Assembly (NCBI GenBank): GCA_947382625.1
Contig: CANDAG010000028.1
Location: 1 to 47,775 of the forward strand
Direction of reading: 5' to 3'
DNA length: 47,775 nt
DNA from: an uncultured Lachnospiraceae bacterium
GTDB taxonomy: Bacteria; Bacillota; Clostridia; Lachnospirales; Lachnospiraceae
Below, piece by piece: positions 1 to 38,920 of this stretch; within the stretch, counting starts at the first letter, position 1; every line of letters begins with the position of its first letter. Below the pieces are notes generated by a model. The model saw only the letters and a list, made by a program, of their open reading frames with translations. It searched no databases and was not told the DNA's origin. Made by a program: the position numbers and the translations under genes.

Positions 1-690
1 AGGTCTCCGTACTAGTCTCCGTAGAGGTCTCCGTGCTGGTCTCTGTAGAAGTTTCCGTACTGGTCTCTGTGGAAGTCTCCGTGCTGGTTTCTGTGGAAGT
101 TTCCGTACTGGTCTCCGTGCTGGTCTCTGTGGAGGTCTCTGTACTGGTTTCTGTAGAAGTTTCTGTACTGGTCTCTGTACTTAACTCTGTAGAAGTTTCC
201 GTGCTGGTTTCTGTAGAAGTCTCCGTACTGGTTTCTGTAGAGGTCTCCGTACTGGTCTCTGTGGAGGTCTCCGTGCTAGTCTCTGTAGAGGTCTCTGTAC
301 TGGTCTCTGTGGAGGTCTCCGTGCTAGTCTCTGTAGAGGTCTCCGTACTGGTTTCTGTACTGGTCTCCGTGCTAGTCTCTGTACTTAACTCTGTAGAAGT
401 CTCCGTGCTGGTTTCTGTGGAGGTCTCCGTACTAGTCTCTGTAGAGGTCTCTGTACTGGTCTCTGTGGAGGTCTCCGTGCTAGTCTCTGTAGAGGTCTCC
501 GTACTGGTTTCTGTACTGGTCTCCGTGCTAGTCTCTGTACTTAACTCTGTAGAAGTCTCCGTGCTGGTTTCTGTGGAGGTCTCCGTACTAGTCTCTGTAG
601 AGGTCTCTGTACTGGTCTCTGTAGAGGTCTCCGTACTGGTTTCTGTACTGGTCTCCGTGGAGGTCTCTGTACTGGTTTCTGTACTCGACT
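1..690 (-). repeat. 12-bp tandem repeat array coding for TETS, with nested higher-order duplications
   Basis: About 57 in-frame copies of a 12-bp unit (ACG/ACA GAG ACC TCT type) fill this stretch. A marker variant (TTAACT on the plus strand) sits at 181, 385 and 541, spaced 204 and 156 bases apart, which are multiples of 12. The 156-base block at 385-540 is nearly repeated from 541 onward with an internal 24-base loss. All changes keep the reading frame. This pattern fits slipped-strand or recombinational length variation. Confidence 0.9.
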
Positions 691-1840
691 CACCGGATGA
701 CTCCGTACTACTCAACATGCTTGACGCCGTACTCTGATCTTTTATTTGATCTGCAATTGCTTGATTATCATTAATTACTTTGGTGAAAGCCTCCATTTTA
801 CGGTCTGTATACCACTTATTCAGCTCACCTTTACCAATACCAGCCGCCCATTCAAAGAAACCACCTTTGTGCAACTCATCTGCCTGCTGCATTGCCTCCA
901 TAAGGTATGATATGGTATCAGGATCCCCAGGATTTTTCCCTGCTGCAAGACATTTTTTTTCATATTCCTGATTAATTAAGCTTTCATATTCCGCAGTTAC
1001 TCTATCTGCTTCATCCTTTAACAGCCAATTAGTCACACTACTAGCCGTACTCTCAGGCTTCTCCAACAACGTATCCGTCCCAAACAAATCAAAGAAATTC
1101 AAAAGTCCATTTTCCGACATCAAATGAATTTCGCTTTCCGTTGCCAGAACACTTTCACTCTCTGACGCGCTAATGCTCTCGCTGGTTGCCAGGCTCTCGG
1201 AAGTTTCAGCATTCTCACTGTCTGCAGCACTTTCTGAATCTTCTGCTTTTTCACTGCTCACAGCACCGCTTTCGCTTGCAACCGCATCACTTTCACCATC
1301 GGGTGCACTGCTCTCACTGCTTGCCGCGCTGTTATCATCTGTAGAGCCTTCTTCTTTATCCGTAGGTTCTTTGTTCTCTGCCCCATCTTCTTTGTCAGAT
1401 TCCTTATCCTCAGTCTCCTCCTCACCAGGTTCTTTATCTGTTGAGTTATCGCCGTCAGCCGGCTCCTTGTTTTCCGCGTCCTCCCCATCGTCGGGATCCG
1501 GATTCTCTGTCGTATCGTCATCAGCAGGTTCTTCGTCATCTATATCATCTTCAACAGATTCTTTATTCTCTGTCTCATTATCATTAGCAACGCCCTTATC
1601 CTCTGTATCGCCTTCGTTGACAGAATCATTGTTTTCTCCGTCATTTCCATCATCCAGCACATCGTTCTCAACAGGAACCTCTTCCGTGAGTTCTACCACA
1701 GTCTCCTCTTCTGAGCCCTGCTTTACCTCGTCAAGTTCCTCTGCATACACAACATCACAGTCCTGCATCACACTTGCACCACTGAGAGCAACGCCTGTAG
1801 CGACAATGGTCTTCATGACCTTTCCCTTTTTCTTGCGCAT
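1..1840 (-). CDS. Secreted acidic surface protein with long TETS repeat tail (C-terminus beyond window)
   Basis: The frame is open from an ATG at 1840 to the window edge (613 codons, 3' partial). A GGAGG ribosome binding site lies 6 bases upstream. Residues 1-35 form a signal peptide (basic MRKKKGK start, short hydrophobic core, VYAEE cleavage region). Residues about 36-235 are highly acidic and rich in D, E, N, S and T. A compact domain follows at about 240-370, containing TASSVTNWLLKDEADRV, WAAGIGKGELNKWY and a Trp-rich helical pattern; I do not recognise it. From about residue 385 to the edge the chain is almost pure Thr-Glu-Thr-Ser with occasional TELS units. This is the architecture of a cell-surface protein held out on a stalk. 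A sorting signal would be expected further left but cannot be seen. The plus-strand VEVSVLVS reading is a shadow of this frame. Confidence 0.8.
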   Translation of the reverse strand, partial: MRKKKGKVMKTIVATGVALSGASVMQDCDVVYAEELDEVKQGSEEETVVELTEEVPVENDVLDDGNDGENNDSVNEGDTEDKGVANDNETENKESVEDDIDDEEPADDDTTENPDPDDGEDAENKEPADGDNSTDKEPGEEETEDKESDKEDGAENKEPTDKEEGSTDDNSAASSESSAPDGESDAVASESGAVSSEKAEDSESAADSENAETSESLATSESISASESESVLATESEIHLMSENGLLNFFDLFGTDTLLEKPESTASSVTNWLLKDEADRVTAEYESLINQEYEKKCLAAGKNPGDPDTISYLMEAMQQADELHKGGFFEWAAGIGKGELNKWYTDRKMEAFTKVINDNQAIADQIKDQSTASSMLSSTESSGESSTETSTETSTETSTETSTETSTETSTETSTETSTETSTETSTETSTELSTETSTETSTETSTETSTETSTETSTETSTETSTETSTETSTETSTETSTELSTETSTETSTETSTETSTETSTETSTETSTETSTETSTETSTETSTETSTETSTETSTETSTETSTELSTETSTETSTETSTETSTETSTETSTETSTETSTETSTETSTETSTETSTETSTETSTET

Positions 1841-1949: not shown

Positions 1950-1963
1950 TTTTCTAAATTTTT
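1950..1963 (-). promoter_or_regulatory. AT-rich motif copy upstream of the surface gene
   Basis: The 14-mer AAAAATTTAGAAAA (minus strand) occurs here, 110 bases before the surface-protein start, and again at 3248-3261, 107 bases before the SARP start. It overlaps the SARP stop codon. A shared regulatory role is inferred only; the sequence is AT-rich and chance is possible. Confidence 0.3.
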
Positions 1964-3141
1964 GACGAAATTGTATGATAACTGATATGTATCCCCTGCT
2001 CTCCCGCTCTTTTTCGAAAGCAGGTATCTACTCTCTCTACAAGCGCTGCACAATCCTTTTCCTGAATCCCTGACAAAATAATCAGATATTGACTTCGATT
2101 ATAACGGGTAAAGATATCCTCCCGACGCAGCATTTCCTGTAATGCACTCTCCAGCTGTTTTGCAATCGGCCCCAACCGTTTTCGGTCCATAAAAATCTTC
2201 TCATCCGCATCCATAATCGTGCAGAGCATGAGACAGCCTGAACGCCCGGTTCTCTCACTTCCTCGCTCCATAATGTGATAGCTGTCTACAAAACTGGGAT
2301 AAGAGCAAAAGTAAGCCCCTTTCTTCATTTCTTCTCTCAGTTCTCCCCGTATTCGCTCCACATCCTCAGTTCTCTTTTGAATCGCACTGTTCATCTGATG
2401 CAGACATTCCTGTATTCTTTCCGGAGGCTGCATATCCATCTCATCAAGATACATAGCCGTTACCTGCTGATAAAGATCCAAAGCCTCCAGATTACGTCCT
2501 CTGGCAATCAACGCTTCCAATTGCCAGGTCTGCCATTCGTCAAAAGGATATAAGTATGCCGCTTTACCGCACCGCTGCTGGATTTCCTCAAAGTTTCCTT
2601 CTCCCTTCAAAATGTTGCAGAGCTCCTCCAAGCAATTAAAATATTGATATTGGTAATGAGCACCTGTCTTCTCCACCCATTCTTCTCCTTCCAGCTCCGG
2701 CAAAAAATGTCCCTGATAAATATCACAACATTTCCTCAATAATTCTAATCTTTCCTCATCCTGGGCATAGCTGAGTTCGGCATTACATTGCCCGAAGGTA
2801 AGGGCATCTATTTCTATTGGAAATGGCGCTGCAAAGCGGTACAACTCATCATTTACTATAATATAATTTCCCTCCGGCAAACCGCTTTGTGCCAAAAGCT
2901 TTCGAAGCCGATATACGGCAACTCCCAAATTATTGACAGTATCAATATCCGCATCTGTTCCAAATAAGTCCCGTAGCAACTTATATCGCAAAATACCTTC
3001 TGCTCCGGCATGAAGAAGGATCATCAAAAGACGCAGTGGTTTTGTTGTCATTTTAGAACCTATTTGTAGCTCTTTTCCTTCATATATCATTTCCAATCTG
3101 CCAAGCATACGTATCTGAAGCCCTCTTCTTTTTTCTTTCAT
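1954..3141 (-). CDS. SARP/AfsR-like transcriptional regulator with BTAD domain
   Basis: A 395-residue protein. The N-terminus (IRMLGRLEMIYEGKEL, then KPLRLLMILL and a VYRLRKLL helix) matches an OmpR-like winged helix of the SARP type. Residues about 120-270 form the tetratricopeptide-like bacterial transcriptional activator domain (YQGHFLPELEGEEWVE, then ALIARGRNLEALDLYQQ). The C-terminal 110 residues resemble a degenerate GGDEF-like fold without a GGDEF signature. I chose ATG 3141, with AAAGG upstream; a GTG at 3267 would add a hydrophobic, cysteine-rich leader and is unlikely. It lies just upstream of the TETS surface protein on the same strand and divergent from an ECF sigma gene, so it may control that surface gene. 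The target is inferred. Confidence 0.75.
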   Translation of the reverse strand: MKEKRRGLQIRMLGRLEMIYEGKELQIGSKMTTKPLRLLMILLHAGAEGILRYKLLRDLFGTDADIDTVNNLGVAVYRLRKLLAQSGLPEGNYIIVNDELYRFAAPFPIEIDALTFGQCNAELSYAQDEERLELLRKCCDIYQGHFLPELEGEEWVEKTGAHYQYQYFNCLEELCNILKGEGNFEEIQQRCGKAAYLYPFDEWQTWQLEALIARGRNLEALDLYQQVTAMYLDEMDMQPPERIQECLHQMNSAIQKRTEDVERIRGELREEMKKGAYFCSYPSFVDSYHIMERGSERTGRSGCLMLCTIMDADEKIFMDRKRLGPIAKQLESALQEMLRREDIFTRYNRSQYLIILSGIQEKDCAALVERVDTCFRKRAGEQGIHISYHTISSKI

Positions 3142-3397
3142 CTGACATTTTACCTTTTTTCTACAAGTACAAATATATATACAAAAGAACGCGTTACATA
3201 TTAAAAGAGCATTTAAGAAATTAAAAAGGGTCAGTTTAGAGGAATTATTTTCTAAATTTTTAGTCACGCTCAGACAACTATGCTATAATAAGGAAACCAT
3301 CTATCAGACAATTTTCTGATTCCTCTGGTTTTCTCCAGAGATTTCTTATTGTAGAAATTGTGTTTTTGATGGGGATTGACGAGAAGGACAAATTCAC

Positions 3398-3994
3398 ATG
3401 GCAGCTTTAGATTATGATGATATTACCAGACTTGTGATCAGTGCGCAGAATGGGGATAACAACGCATTTGCCAAATTATATACCGCAACCTGCCAAAAGC
3501 AATATCTTTTTTCCTGCCGGTATCTGCAGGATGAACATATGGCACAGGACGCCTTGCAGGAAACCTATATCCATGCACTGAAAAATCTTCCTGCTTTAAA
3601 AAATCCAGCTCTTTTTATTGCATGGCTAAATCAGATCAACTTTCGTATCTGCTACAATATGCATAAGAAGCAGCAGCGTATTAATAAGGAAATCACAGAC
3701 TATTCTGCCACTGCAAACGAAATAAGCGGTAATAATGATCCTCACTTTTTGCATGCTCAAAGTCCTGAAGATATTCTGATCCGTATTGATTCCGCAAAGT
3801 ATATTATGAGTCAGATCCTGCAGCTTCCATATACTGAAGCCCAAGCAATCATTCTCAAATATTACCGGAATATGAAATACCAGGAAATAGCGGAGTATAT
3901 GAATATCAGTCTGAGTTCTGTTAAACGTTATCTGCGTAATGGCCGAAACCGTCTGTCCGCAATATTTCAATCGCAGGAAGATCAGATTGTATGA
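3398..3994 (+). CDS. ECF-type RNA polymerase sigma-70 factor
   Basis: A 198-residue protein. Region 2 is visible at about 12-85 (AFAKLYTATCQKQYLFSCRY, QDALQETYIHALKNL), and region 4 at about 135-190 (LPYTEAQAIILKYYRNMKYQEIAEYM followed by the helix SLSSVKRYLRNGRNRL). There is no region 1 or 3, which is the ECF layout. AGAAGGA about 10 bases before ATG 3398 sets the start. It is transcribed away from the SARP regulator across a 256-base divergent gap. No intact anti-sigma factor follows: the next start overlaps the stop (ATGA) but soon runs into a hairpin. It probably directs transcription of envelope or surface genes; the regulon is not visible. Confidence 0.88.
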   Translation: MAALDYDDITRLVISAQNGDNNAFAKLYTATCQKQYLFSCRYLQDEHMAQDALQETYIHALKNLPALKNPALFIAWLNQINFRICYNMHKKQQRINKEITDYSATANEISGNNDPHFLHAQSPEDILIRIDSAKYIMSQILQLPYTEAQAIILKYYRNMKYQEIAEYMNISLSSVKRYLRNGRNRLSAIFQSQEDQIV

Positions 3995-32922: not shown

Positions 32923-35900
32923 CTACTCCTGGCCGGACTCTTTTGCGGAATCCTTTTTCTTACGGAATTTGAAATAGTAAAGGAATCCCAGGCCTGCCAG
33001 AGCCCCGGCTCCTAATAACAGCCATAAGCCCGGGCGGCTTTCATCTCCGGTCCTTGGATTTTTGGTATCCAGGCCGCCTTCTGTCCCTGCCTCCCCGGTC
33101 AAAGGGCTCACAGGCGGATTCGAAGGCTTTACAGTTGAGGCAGTCTTTTTCCGGGAATTTCCCGGGGAATTCCCCATGGGATCCTCTGATGAGGAATCCT
33201 CTTCCTCCCCGCCTTCCTCCCTGTCCTTATCCTCGTCGGTGGGCGGCTTTTCGGTATCCGTTCTGTTCTGATCCGTAACTACCACGATATTCAACAGGCT
33301 GAACAGGTTGGTCAGGTCCGTTTCTCCCAGATCGTCCTTGTTGACATCCACATTCGTCCCCTCGTACTGGCCGCCTGTAAGCGCCGCATAGTTCTGCTGT
33401 ACCCGTGCGCGGATAAAATCCGTGTCTGTGACAAAGAATGGCTTCTTCGTCTTACCTCCGTCCTCATCATGAAGTCCGTAATCTACCTGGGCGTTTTTGC
33501 CGAAGTGAAGGTTCATGCTGCGGACCGTATCCGTCCCCTCTTCCTTCACATCCTGCCAGCCGGTCAGGGAAAAGGTGCCGCTGGGCTGGGTCTGCATAAA
33601 GGCCGTGATATCCTGCAGGGTAACATCCACATCACTGTCCATGGCATACTGACGCATGGCCTGGGTCAGCCGTCCCACTCCGGCCATAACGCTGACTCCG
33701 TCATCTGCAGTGCCTGCATCCGCATAAATGGAGTAAGTGCCCACGATCACAGGGATCACCGTATTGTTCAGAGCGTATCCCTCGGGTGCCTTCGTCTCCT
33801 TCAGATAATATTCTGTGTTGGAGCTGTTGGCCCATATCATCTGCGCCTGTCCCTCACTGTTATTTCCGCCGGGTGAAAAGATCAGCATCCCCTCTGCATC
33901 TGTGACTCCTGAGGCCACCATTGCCGTACAGGCCGCATCGCTGAACAGACCGAACTCTGTCCCCTGCAGGGGCTTTCCCTCCTGATCCACCTTCATTACC
34001 CAAAGCTCCCTCTGCTCATTGGGGATATAGATCAGGGAACGGAAGTCACGGTTAAACTGGCTTACACTCAGCATCTGAAAACCACCCTGAAGAGCGCTGC
34101 GGGCTTCCTCTGCAGTATGGGTGCTGAGATAATTCCGCAAAGAGGCATAGCGTTCCTTTGCCGTGCCGCCGCCGATCCCCATATTCCTCAGGGCCTGTGC
34201 GGAAATGATCCCGTACACCATGTGCATATCACTGTCCTTATCATTATTGAGCTCATAACGGCTTGCCAGCCCCGGCAGGTCATTGAGCATACCGTACAGC
34301 CGTCTGTTCCCACTGTCCCAGTCCAGATGCCACTCGGCAGTGTTTTCTGCCCCGGCCTGGTGGAGCGCTGCCAGCAACACGGCACGCCGCCAGGCATCCT
34401 CACTGTTTCCTTCCACCGGTACAGAATAAAAGCCGCTCAGGTTACTGCCGTAGAGAGCCAGCCAGCTCTGGTCAGACTGCTTTTTCAGACAGGGCACTGC
34501 CACCGCCAGACCGTTTTCCTGATCATTGGGGTCAACATCCCCTCCGGTAGGCTTAAATACACCGTCATTATCAAGCTGTCCATAGCTCAGCTTTCCACCG
34601 CTTGTAACATTGGACATGGAGCATGCGTAGGCTCCCGTAGTCCAGCGGTTGGCCACTGAAAGCATGGAGGTAGTCGTATCATAATGGAGAACAATATCAA
34701 TGGGCTGGGCCCGATAACCGCTCCGGGTAGCCGTCTCCTTTAAAACATAGTACTGATCTCCCCGGTCAGCGAAATTAAAATAGCTTCCATCCGGCGTCAA
34801 AAATACCGCAGATCCGCTTTCATCTGTCCGAAGGTTGACCAGGCTCTTGCTGTAATCCGGCCTCACATAAAATGTTTTGCCCCGCTCCCCATCATCGGTA
34901 TAAAGACAACGGATGCTTCCCCCGCCGCTGTCCTCTGTCCTCTCAGCCGGGTAAAGCTCAAACTCCACATCCGGAAGGGCCTGTCCCTTTTGATCCACCT
35001 TCACGATCCGCTGATAAAGAAGCGGCTGAAGGTTGAACCGCAAAGCGATACTGGAATCGTAATTTCCCCGCTCCAGGTAGAACATTTTCAATGTGTGGGA
35101 GGTGTTGCTGGCGAAGGTGTTGCCTGTCCAGGAGGTAGTGTCTTCTTTTCCAGCGTCCTCGTAGAGCTCCCAGAGCGTGGTATGGGTGTACATCCGATCG
35201 GGATTCGTTGGATCTTTCGGAATTCCCTTACTGTCAAAAGCACGGCCGATATAGACATCGCCGCTATGGAAATCAATGGTGCCGTAAAGCTCACTGTGGA
35301 TGCCGCCGATATCCAACACCAGCACATCGTCAATAAATACCCAGACATCATCGTCTCCCGAAAATTCAAAGGTCATAGGCTTTTTTTCACCGGAACCGTT
35401 ATTGATCTGTCCATTGGCAGGTTGCCGGAATTCTACATCCACCGTCATGCCCAGGTGGTGATTCATGGCGTTGCGGGCACAGTACACACTGCTGCCCAAC
35501 CCGCCGTTACTATTTAAAAGGTTGAATACCTCATAGCCTTTGTTAAAAGGGAAAAAGTTGCCTACACTCTGGGCTGCATCGGTCCGAATCGTGGCCGGTG
35601 CATCGTAAAGGATAAAATGGTTACCGCCCTCCTGACTGAACTCTGCAAAGTTCTCCCTCATGTTATAGTAATAGTAGCCCTCCTCGTCCAGCTGGAACAA
35701 TCCCTTAACGTCTGTATAAGAGGTTTTATATTCGGTGCCACCTGTTGGATCGAAAAGGTATTGCAGGGATTCTTTCTTTCCTGCCCCAATGCCACCCCAG
35801 ATACCAATCAGAGTCTCGCTTAGGTTTTGGATGTTGTCAGAGTCATAATCAATACTGCCTTTACAATCACCAGTAAGTTTATAGTCCTTGATATAAGTAT

Positions 35901-38502
35901 AATCCTGTGAAGGATCTTCCTTCAGAATTTTTCTCGCCATATCCAGATTAAGCTCCGGATAACCGCTTTCGGGCAGGACATTTTTGACGATCCCTTCCAT
36001 TCCGGCATAATTTTTTCCATACCGGCAGTTTTCTCCCGCTCCCTTATTCCAGAGACCGGCATGGATCATTCCATCCCCAAAAAGCAAAAGATGGTTCTGA
36101 TTTATCCCCAGATTCCAGTCATCCACTGTTGAATATCCTGTGTCCGTAGTACTGAGCGCTCCTTCGCCACCTTCTTCATGCTTATGGTTATCGCTCTTAT
36201 CAAGAATATCTCCCTTGGTATCTGCTGAGGGATTCTGCGTCTTCGTCCAATAGTCAAACAGATTGACCGTAACATTTCCCGGGTCAGCGGCGGGAACCGT
36301 ATGATTTTCCAGATTTAGGTTGTTCAGCTTTACCTTCAAGCTGAGGATGGATGGATTATTCTTGGTGTCCTTATTTTCATCAGATGGATTGCCGGAAGCA
36401 TCCCTGTAATCCTCCTGTTTATTGGAGTTTACATAGATGTGATAAGTAAAAACTTCCTTTTTCACTTCCGGGATCTCTGCATAAAGAGTAAATTCCATTC
36501 CATCAGTAAAGTCGGCAGGGAAAGCATCGTCTTTCCATTGAATGCCGACATGTCCCCACTTATATCCTTCCCCCTGAAATTGTACTTTATCTTTTCCACC
36601 CTCACTAAATGCAAACTTATCCTCACTTTGGTTTTCATCAAAAGTAAAACCAACTATCGAGAATACGTTATCCGGATCACTTGCACTAACCCATCCTCTG
36701 ATTTCCATCGGCAAAACCGTATCTTTCAACCAGTGGATGATTTCTCCCCTGCTCCTGCTTTCCATATTTGCCAAAGCGGCAGCTATAGTGGCATCCTCCG
36801 GCAGCTTGGTTTCATCCCTGTCAATAAAGCTCCATTGGTTAAGGTATTTCTCCTTATGATTGTTTTCCTTTAAGGTGACTTTGAGGGCTAGGATGTGAGG
36901 GTTATTCTTGGTGTCCTTATTTTCATCAGATGGATTGCCTGCTGCATCTTTATAGTCCTTTGGGTCATTGGAGTTTACATACATATTATATGTATCACTA
37001 CCCTCTATAACAGTAGGGATTTCTGCATAAAGAGTGAATTCCATTCCATCCTTAAATACCTTCGGGAAATCCTCTTCCCTCCACTGGATACCAATCAAGC
37101 CCCATATTGGATCTTTTACCGATGGATTTTTTGGCCCATCCACTGAAGTTTCGAATTTAGCACCATCTTGGTTTACATTAGTGTTAAACCCAACTTTATT
37201 AAACACTCCATTGGGATCGGATTGTGAAGCCCATCCTCTGATCTGTTCTGGCAGGACAGTATCCTCCAACCATCTGATAATTTCAGACGTACTTTTGCTC
37301 TCCAGCCCCGTGACTGTTGCTGTTATTTCATTTTTTTCCATCTTGGTATTGCTCTTACGGTCAATAAAACTCCACTGATTAAGGAATTTCTTCTTATCCT
37401 CATACACCTCTCCTCCCCCAAGCGCCACCAGCACCTGCAACGCAGGGGCGTCCTCTGTCAGGACATACTCGCCGCTTAAGGAGGCGTTCAATGTATATTG
37501 TCCCTCAAATGCGCTTTCCGGGAATTCGTCAAGCTCCCAGATCAGCTCCACCTCTCCGGTACCTGCTGCCGTCTCGGCCAAGATCGCGGCAGGAAGCAGC
37601 TTTGTCAGGGCTTCCTTTGTGAGAGGGTTGTCCTCGTCTGTACCGGGTACCCCCAGCCCCCAAAGCTCTGTCTCTTCGTTCCAGACCAACAATTCTTCCT
37701 CATCCACCCACTCCCAGTCCGTAACGCAAAACTCACATACATAGCTGCAGGTATTATTTTCCTCTTCCCCCACGTAACCACAGGTATCATCATGCTCATG
37801 GGTACAGGGCGCACCCTCCTCCGGCTCTGTATAGCCACAGGTATCGTCATGCTCGTGGGTACAGGATGTACCTTCCGCAGGCTCCGTATAACCGCAGTCA
37901 TCATCGTGCTCATGGGTACAGGGTGTACCCTCCTCAGGCTCTGTATAGCCGCAGGTATCGTCATGCTCATGGGTGCAGGGAGAGCCTTCCTCTGCCGGAG
38001 TATATGCACAGCCGGACTGATGGACAATATTTCCCTCATCATCGGTCTCATCGCAATCCATATCGCAGGGAATCTCATCTACGGCCTCCTGATAGCCGCA
38101 GCTTCCGTCATGCGTATGAGCACAATCCGTACCGTCTACGGATTCTGTGTAGCCACAGGTATCATCATGCTCATGCGCACAACCGCCGCCTTCCTCAGGC
38201 TCTGTATATCCACAGGTATCGTCATGCTCATGGGTACAGCTGCCGCCCTCCCCAGGCTCTATGTAACCACAGATATCGTCATGCTGGTGTGTACAGCCGC
38301 CGTCCTCCGGAGACACATATCCGCATTCCTCTGTGTGTTCCGGATGATGGATACACAGCTTCTCATCAGAACGCTCCGCTGCATTGGCAAAAATCCCATC
38401 AAAGGACGGGATCAGAAGTGCAATGGTCAGCGCCCATGCCAGAAATTTTGGACGCCAACCTTTTTCCGGGAATTTCAGTAAATACCCTTTCTCCATTTTC
38501 AT
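32923..38502 (-). CDS. Giant sortase-anchored adhesin with Cys/His repeat head, fibro-slime and SpaA-like domains
   Basis: An 1859-residue surface protein. ATG 38502 has AGGAGG 9 bases upstream; the longer frame would read through a neighbouring remnant. Residues 1-42: signal peptide (LAWALTIALLIPSF...ANAAE). About 50-260: repeats of the type CTHEHDDTCGYTEPEEG. About 370-545 and 550-725: two tandem repeats opening FLNQWSFIDR. About 1015-1150: fibro-slime-like domain (FSGDDDVWVFIDDVLVLDIG). About 1160-1275 and 1498-1590: SpaA/CnaB-like domains, the second with a classic E-box YYLKETKAPEGY that supports isopeptide bonds. C-terminus: acidic linker, NPRTG sorting motif near 1816, hydrophobic helix and RKKK tail. 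No sortase gene is in the window. Confidence 0.92.
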   Translation of the reverse strand: MKMEKGYLLKFPEKGWRPKFLAWALTIALLIPSFDGIFANAAERSDEKLCIHHPEHTEECGYVSPEDGGCTHQHDDICGYIEPGEGGSCTHEHDDTCGYTEPEEGGGCAHEHDDTCGYTESVDGTDCAHTHDGSCGYQEAVDEIPCDMDCDETDDEGNIVHQSGCAYTPAEEGSPCTHEHDDTCGYTEPEEGTPCTHEHDDDCGYTEPAEGTSCTHEHDDTCGYTEPEEGAPCTHEHDDTCGYVGEEENNTCSYVCEFCVTDWEWVDEEELLVWNEETELWGLGVPGTDEDNPLTKEALTKLLPAAILAETAAGTGEVELIWELDEFPESAFEGQYTLNASLSGEYVLTEDAPALQVLVALGGGEVYEDKKKFLNQWSFIDRKSNTKMEKNEITATVTGLESKSTSEIIRWLEDTVLPEQIRGWASQSDPNGVFNKVGFNTNVNQDGAKFETSVDGPKNPSVKDPIWGLIGIQWREEDFPKVFKDGMEFTLYAEIPTVIEGSDTYNMYVNSNDPKDYKDAAGNPSDENKDTKNNPHILALKVTLKENNHKEKYLNQWSFIDRDETKLPEDATIAAALANMESRSRGEIIHWLKDTVLPMEIRGWVSASDPDNVFSIVGFTFDENQSEDKFAFSEGGKDKVQFQGEGYKWGHVGIQWKDDAFPADFTDGMEFTLYAEIPEVKKEVFTYHIYVNSNKQEDYRDASGNPSDENKDTKNNPSILSLKVKLNNLNLENHTVPAADPGNVTVNLFDYWTKTQNPSADTKGDILDKSDNHKHEEGGEGALSTTDTGYSTVDDWNLGINQNHLLLFGDGMIHAGLWNKGAGENCRYGKNYAGMEGIVKNVLPESGYPELNLDMARKILKEDPSQDYTYIKDYKLTGDCKGSIDYDSDNIQNLSETLIGIWGGIGAGKKESLQYLFDPTGGTEYKTSYTDVKGLFQLDEEGYYYYNMRENFAEFSQEGGNHFILYDAPATIRTDAAQSVGNFFPFNKGYEVFNLLNSNGGLGSSVYCARNAMNHHLGMTVDVEFRQPANGQINNGSGEKKPMTFEFSGDDDVWVFIDDVLVLDIGGIHSELYGTIDFHSGDVYIGRAFDSKGIPKDPTNPDRMYTHTTLWELYEDAGKEDTTSWTGNTFASNTSHTLKMFYLERGNYDSSIALRFNLQPLLYQRIVKVDQKGQALPDVEFELYPAERTEDSGGGSIRCLYTDDGERGKTFYVRPDYSKSLVNLRTDESGSAVFLTPDGSYFNFADRGDQYYVLKETATRSGYRAQPIDIVLHYDTTTSMLSVANRWTTGAYACSMSNVTSGGKLSYGQLDNDGVFKPTGGDVDPNDQENGLAVAVPCLKKQSDQSWLALYGSNLSGFYSVPVEGNSEDAWRRAVLLAALHQAGAENTAEWHLDWDSGNRRLYGMLNDLPGLASRYELNNDKDSDMHMVYGIISAQALRNMGIGGGTAKERYASLRNYLSTHTAEEARSALQGGFQMLSVSQFNRDFRSLIYIPNEQRELWVMKVDQEGKPLQGTEFGLFSDAACTAMVASGVTDAEGMLIFSPGGNNSEGQAQMIWANSSNTEYYLKETKAPEGYALNNTVIPVIVGTYSIYADAGTADDGVSVMAGVGRLTQAMRQYAMDSDVDVTLQDITAFMQTQPSGTFSLTGWQDVKEEGTDTVRSMNLHFGKNAQVDYGLHDEDGGKTKKPFFVTDTDFIRARVQQNYAALTGGQYEGTNVDVNKDDLGETDLTNLFSLLNIVVVTDQNRTDTEKPPTDEDKDREEGGEEEDSSSEDPMGNSPGNSRKKTASTVKPSNPPVSPLTGEAGTEGGLDTKNPRTGDESRPGLWLLLGAGALAGLGFLYYFKFRKKKDSAKESGQE
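37740..38340 (-). repeat. 57-bp tandem repeats coding for a 19-residue Cys/His unit
   Basis: About nine units with C-to-C spacing of 19 residues, consensus C-T-H-E-H-D-D-T-C-G-Y followed by TEPEEG. One unit is replaced by a 30-residue variant (CDMDCDETDDEGNIVHQSGC). The array ends with CSYVCEFC. The first unit is divergent (CIHHPEHTEECGY). Confidence 0.9.
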
Positions 38503-38611
38503 TGTCAATGACCTCCTGAATGTAAGATTTTCTCCTGTAAGCTTATAAATGTCTGAATCTTCTCGTAATGCTTCCACGCAGCCAGGCTTTAATCTTCCGT
38601 CTGCTTTCCTA

Positions 38612-38920
38612 TCAGGACTCTTTTTCGCAAAAGGCAAATCCATACTTTCGTATCCTGCCTGTGGGGATTCCTTTCGCGGCAAGTGCTGCCTCATACTTCC
38701 GCTCCCTGATTTGCAGGAGCGCCCTCTTAACAGTATCTTCTAATTCCTTTTCATCTGCGCTCTGAATCTTAAATTCAATGATGATGCTGTCATCCTCCAT
38801 AACGCCTTTTGCATTTCTTGCCTCCAACATCTCCCTGTTCCCACCATTCTTTGATGAACCGGGTTTTATCGATATAAAAATATGCGCCCCTTCGTATGGT
38901 TTCAAAATCCTGACATCCAA
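38612..38920 (-). pseudogene. C-terminal remnant of an AAA/PD-(D/E)XK (DUF1703) protein
   Basis: From about codon 27 the frame reads REMLEARNAKG, DSIIIEFKIQ and LEDTVKRALLQIRERKYEAA, then KGIPTGRIRKYGFAF: the end of the nuclease domain including the E-x-K pair and the closing strand. The ATPase and most of the nuclease are missing, and the first 25 codons have no homology I can see. It is wedged between the HipA-like gene (3-base gap) and the giant adhesin, marking an old rearrangement or insertion junction. Confidence 0.65.

Follow-up and report, generated by a model that had tools for sequence, protein, structure and literature searches.

This locus raises the question of what kind of surface protein is encoded by a gene that is cut off by the end of its contig within a repeat array, and whether this protein stands alone or belongs to a dedicated export system. 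The window, that is, the whole stretch of 47,775 nucleotides that was analysed, is the entire contig C28 of a genome that lies in 113 contigs and is 88% complete. A frame at positions 2-1840 of its minus strand begins with an ATG at 1840 and, after 613 codons, reaches the contig end still open. We are highly confident that these are the first 613 codons of an accessory Sec (aSec) serine-rich repeat (SRR) adhesin from a congener of Parablautia intestinalis.

Layout of the truncated, probable adhesin gene

The anatomy of the adhesin, as read from its sequence, is secure, and its features are listed here together with the gene directly upstream:

1..1840, minus strand: 5' portion of the SRR adhesin gene, encoding 613 residues, truncated by the contig end and most likely resuming at the start of contig C4 (L013:2-793, plus strand)
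1733..1840, minus strand: short SRR signal peptide of a type common to related complete SRR proteins (profile E = 1.2e-14)
1331..1705, minus strand: acidic region with a net charge of -49 over residues 46-170
1127..1330, minus strand: Ser-rich stretch at the place of SRR1, residues 171-238, with 32% Ser and 19% Ala
689..1126, minus strand: head in the binding-region position, residues 239-384 including the linker to the array; single-sequence prediction gives helices only
1..688, minus strand: TETS/TELS array in the SRR2 position, from residue 385 on, 56 whole units within the window, with higher-order periods of 24 bp and 156 bp
1954..3267, minus strand: BTAD-type regulator gene directly upstream of the adhesin; 10 other aSec loci have a relative of it ahead of their SRR gene

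The domain order is thus acidic region, SRR1, head and SRR2, and the plan of SRR1, binding region and long SRR2 is present in the window protein. The original prediction of a stalk carrying a head was correct, with signal peptide, acidic region, head and repeat array all found in frame; it had named a stop or frameshift just left of the window as evidence against itself, and none was found at the contig end. At E ≤ 0.1 the window protein matched no NCBIfam model, not even that for the aSec adhesin N-terminus.

The array consists of 53 TETS and 3 TELS units of 12 bp each. When examined for alternating-serine repeats, it was found to have Ser or Thr at three of the four TETS positions, with an overall composition of 47% Thr and 26% Ser. 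The repeats had been described as perfect at 12 bp, which holds for the nearly constant peptide but not for the DNA, where the codons vary and 18 different 12-mers occur among the 56 units. A proposed 156-base layer is real: at a lag of 13 units (156 bp) 37% of the units are identical, against at most 29% in 1000 unit shuffles (best of lags 1-39), and the array contains one exact 191-nt run at lag 156, an exact 156-bp duplication. The 24-base layer is also present: from one unit to the next the serine codon switches between AGY and TCY, on C4 at 14 of 14 steps and in the window at 46 of 55, while the peptide stays TETS; because of this alternation, the deeper repeat unit is 24 bp. With one genome per species, the exact internal duplication hints that stalk length may change fast between strains. 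Elsewhere in the window, positions 32923-38694 hold a frame of 1923 residues with a SpaA domain and 57-bp tandem repeats.

The head, roughly 130 residues long, had been described as matching nothing known, and sequence, family and fold searches all ended without a credible relative. A PDB sequence search returned two matches only (E = 0.27 and 1), and neither Pfam nor PHROGs gave a match up to E = 10. Relatives of the head were not detected by a pattern scan of genome contigs with the whole N-terminal part as query, nor in 59 other genomes searched; among 391 other genomes no convincing relative was found, one match (E = 0.0088) falling in a frame interrupted by two stops. The aSec loci searched, complete SRR proteins included and loci repeating the window omitted, held none at E below 6. 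Two AlphaFold models were made from single-sequence input, which often yields poor models, and both contained helices only; the trimmed model had a mean pLDDT of 74.6 and consisted of three long helices and a short one. Foldseek searches of the PDB with both models gave nothing at E ≤ 0.001, and the top match of the better model was RomX (E = 1.2). The head is described as a predicted helical, orphan domain in the binding-region position.

Signal peptide, regulator and accessory Sec locus

A signal profile was built from 19 complete SRR genes adjoining SecY2 in other genomes. The window protein matched it at E = 1.2e-14, while the runner-up among 1112 frames (the window and five fetched stretches) had E = 1.4. 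In the whole genome the window site was the only strong match (E = 9.4e-14), and one partial match (E = 0.0046) lay on contig C34; the 467-residue product of this candidate lacks Ser-rich repeats, and it was rejected as an SRR gene. Each of the 21 complete SRR proteins matches the profile with self left out at E ≤ 2.7e-10. The window signal extends over ~36 residues from the ATG used. KxYKxGKxW is the motif of the extended signal peptide of classical SRRPs, and it is absent from the window protein and from all 21 complete relatives. Residues 46-170 contain 16% Ala+Ser+Thr, compared with 30-50% in an AST stretch.

Across the whole genome, the repeat matches strongly at two places, the left end of C28 and that of C4; the search gave 10 matches in all, the remainder being the same places in other frames and a weak match on C6 (E = 0.028). 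The last 55 nt of the window coding strand are identical to C4 positions 2-56, and the preceding base differs, as expected where an assembler breaks off within a repeat. On C4 the adhesin frame runs for 263 codons to its stop (L013:2-793, plus strand), and ~40 bases further SecY2 begins, followed by Asp1, Asp2, Asp3, SecA2, GtfA, GtfB and a second GtfB. Asp1, Asp2, Asp3, SecA2, GtfA and both GtfB each score above an NCBIfam cut-off, while SecY2 stays under both of its cut-offs, scoring 237 bits where the closer of the two SecY2 models requires 249.6. Adjacency to secY2, asp1-3, secA2 and gtf was thus found for the C4 half, and the window half is tied to these genes by the inferred join.

The two GtfB paralogues stand in tandem (L013:9451-12252). 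A second aSec locus of the same genome, on C27 (L018, G000:C27:1-20000), showed one such frame only; its Asp1 is above cut-off, and its other genes were assigned by order and likeness. It carries its own SRR adhesin end with SESLST repeats and a WWSWLPVIGA tail, and the N-terminal half of that adhesin was not found in this incomplete genome.

In 10 of the loci examined, some of them near copies of each other, a relative of the BTAD-type regulator lies ahead of the SRR gene; these are the loci of nine of the 21 complete SRR genes plus L094. The BTAD match ends less than 0.7 kb from the SRR frame in eight of these loci and almost 3 kb away in L047 and L094. No such relative was found in front of the SRR gene of P. 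intestinalis (L116) or of 12 of the 21 complete SRR genes. A gene for a sigma-70 family (ECF-like) factor (window 3398-3994) is divergent from the regulator and adhesin, and could possibly be linked to their expression.

Because the repeat sites, the shared 55-nt word, the signal profile and the BTAD relatives agree, the joining of the C28 and C4 adhesin halves across the contig gap appears well supported. The gene had been read as that of a stalk protein, which was right as to stalk and head and missed the aSec system to which it most likely belongs. A mucin-like stalk secreted on its own through the housekeeping Sec pathway, with the C4 locus serving another adhesin, would agree with a gene truncated at the contig end and with a short signal lacking KxYKxGKxW, but the C4 frame directly before SecY2 opens with the same TETS array, and the signal type is the one carried by the 21 complete SRR proteins adjoining SecY2 (leave-one-out values above), which makes such a stalk very unlikely. 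The assignment of the window protein to an aSec SRR system is well supported.

Distribution of the loci and C-terminal tails

Asp1 was found in two of 37 genomes of the genus, twice in that of the window (C4 and C27) and once in P. intestinalis D8-82. A pattern scan of genome contigs, with an alignment of these three Asp1 sequences as query and hence informative on their own group only, found 93 relatives among 165 stretches, of which 80 were kept. Going by their labels, they belong largely to Lachnospiraceae and genera within it; two are labelled Oscillibacter, and some are given just as Clostridia or bacterium. Together with C4 and C27 these make 82 aSec loci, and an SRR gene directly upstream of SecY2 was accepted in 57; two had no SecY2 match, seven had no neighbouring frame passing the filter, and 16, whose neighbour is not a Ser-rich surface protein, were dropped by hand, some of the loci outside the 57 being cut by contig ends. 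Six Pseudobutyrivibrio-type members contain only 16-20% Ser+Thr. The aSec export and glycosylation locus and its substrate are thereby placed in dozens of genomes, mostly labelled as Lachnospiraceae, yet Asp1 is above cut-off in only 13 of 397 genomes of the family, those of the window and P. intestinalis included.

A search for a sorting signal beyond the contig edge had been suggested. On C4, where it was looked for, the adhesin ends in WWWWIPIVGAGIAGERIGEYRRKKK plus a charged end, which is not an LPXTG motif, and none of the LPXTG-anchor models matched this tail, apart from LPXTG_double, which aligned by its first half only, at 21 bits where the cut-off is 48. Among the 57 SRR tails, sorted by text patterns of our own, 18 were WWxW[IL]P (both tails of this genome included), 10 were another WWW type, 17 had another hydrophobic end, eight were LPXTG-like (L104 was reassigned there by hand for its VPKTG) and four had no clear membrane segment, L050 and L053 being counted there while marginally below the hydrophobicity threshold. 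Tail type tracks a quick Asp1 tree, with 13 changes where shuffling gave 32 on average, a clustering that common descent alone would produce. In this tree C4 falls outside the main WWxWIP clade and is nearest by path to a WWW-type row, on a long branch of unsure placement.

Fifteen WWxWIP tails share nine invariant columns, and the C4 tail is a diverged member. In 18 genomes searched, the WWxWIP tail profile found one SRR tail in each of 16 Trp-tail genomes, and in the window's genome those of C27 and C4, the latter at E = 3.2e-7 while not being part of the profile; the P. intestinalis genome gave no match. The tail looks dedicated to SRR proteins, because the profile matched elsewhere in these 18 genomes just twice and weakly (E = 0.017 and 0.04).

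These results bear on whether the protein is a decayed adhesin, a pseudo-SRRP set free after the loss of its LPXTG anchor. The half match to LPXTG_double below its cut-off fits such a loss, as do the two sortase genes of the window's genome, where sortase is present and the adhesin LPXTG motif absent, and LPXTG-less forms are termed pseudo-SRRPs in the available part of a review (PMC6973325). However, neither piece of the frame is interrupted, LPXTG-like ends make up a minority of the set (8/57), and the Trp-rich tail keeps its nine invariant columns over 15 proteins, though the C4 tail has diverged, so that decay is improbable. Relatives of the P. intestinalis sortase were found near one of eight LPXTG-like SRR loci (P. 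intestinalis itself) and one of 14 loci of the class with other hydrophobic ends, and near none of 16 WWxWIP and seven WWW loci with enough flank.

An exosortase K gene (XrtK; 106 bits against a cut-off of 55) lies on C4 ~13 kb past Asp1 (L013:16379-17293). It adjoins a gene for a protein like the marine sortase target family (below cut-off), both at L013:16379-19412, a few kb beyond the aSec genes. It is hardly credible that this enzyme cleaves the Trp-rich tail as a sorting signal. The presence of XrtK on C4 and its somewhat higher frequency with WWxWIP tails (5/17 genomes against 5/32 others, in a survey that left out L050, L053, L104, L107 and L108) speak for it; against it, XrtK was not seen in 12 of the 17 WWxWIP-tail genomes, which are incomplete so that absence is not firm, two of the five positive tails come as pairs of near copies, and two LPXTG-type genomes have XrtK. 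As the tail enzyme, exosortase K was accordingly judged an unlikely candidate.

Architecture, signal type, neighbouring machinery and tail type of the aSec SRR adhesin can be read directly from the DNA, and suggest how it could work. GtfA and GtfB would add sugars onto the Ser/Thr array inside the cell, and SecA2/SecY2 with Asp1-3 would export the glycoprotein. The array could form a stiff stalk that holds the head outward, the head may bind a host or bacterial surface, and the C-terminus would be retained in the membrane by its Trp-rich hydrophobic segment and basic tail, not by sortase.

We tentatively propose, at somewhat less than even chances, that the SRR adhesins of Lachnospiraceae form a class of their own among aSec substrates, with a short signal that they share and lineage-matched, dedicated C-terminal elements (e.g. 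WWSWIPVIGAxASAVxGYRRN) that replace sortase anchoring and are maybe read by the aSec machinery or another partner for membrane retention; to this the window adhesin would add an orphan helical binding head. These Lachnospiraceae substrates have a different signal and are mostly without LPXTG. If the Trp-rich tail does anchor, it can be used to probe how a glycoprotein leaving SecY2 stays at the surface without sortase, and the small orphan head lends itself to binding assays.

Comparison with known SRR systems

Among the matches listed in our literature searches there was no paper on Lachnospiraceae SRR adhesins, and none is described in the available parts of PMC7676259, PMC12001732, PMC7446861, PMC3297441, PMC12355684 and PMC9210967. 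Accessory Sec proteins are named among the genes unique to Pseudobutyrivibrio in the accessible text of PMC6912079. The review cited above covers, in its available part, SRR adhesins of Lactobacillales and staphylococci, and lists commensal SRRPs from Lactobacillales (PMC6973325). There, the classical plan is given as signal, AST, SRR1, BR, SRR2 and LPXTG, with an extended signal of about 90 residues and an AST of 30-50% Ala/Ser/Thr (PMC6973325).

The window adhesin resembles the aSec SRR glycoproteins (GspB, Hsa, Fap1, PsrP, Srr-1 and SRRP53608) in a gene that adjoins secY2/asp/secA2/gtf and in the order SRR1, binding region and long SRR2; in the same part of the review, an acidic binding region is described as common (PMC6973325). 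It differs in its short clade-specific signal without KxYKxGKxW, the acidic region in the place of the AST, a Thr-rich TETS array, a head for which no relatives were found, and the lack of LPXTG. Judged on these features, it looks like an unusual form of aSec SRR adhesin that lacks three classical ones, the long signal, the AST stretch and LPXTG.

SssP1 of Streptococcus suis is likewise an aSec-linked SRR adhesin without LPXTG, but it has Ig-like binding domains and extra C-terminal domains, and a Trp-rich tail is not mentioned in the available text (PMC6973325). The helical subdomain of Fap1 (2KUB) is similar as a helical part in a binding region, according to the same text (PMC6973325), whereas it was absent among the best 50 Foldseek hits of either head model and gave no PDB sequence match. 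The SRR protein of P. intestinalis D8-82 (G028; L116:16303-17823 and L019:1-939, paired by inference) differs in its SASAS-type repeat, another head and an LPKTG anchor above the curated cut-off; it comes from the same genus, has a related signal and an aSec locus, and its gene is also truncated by contig ends within the repeat.
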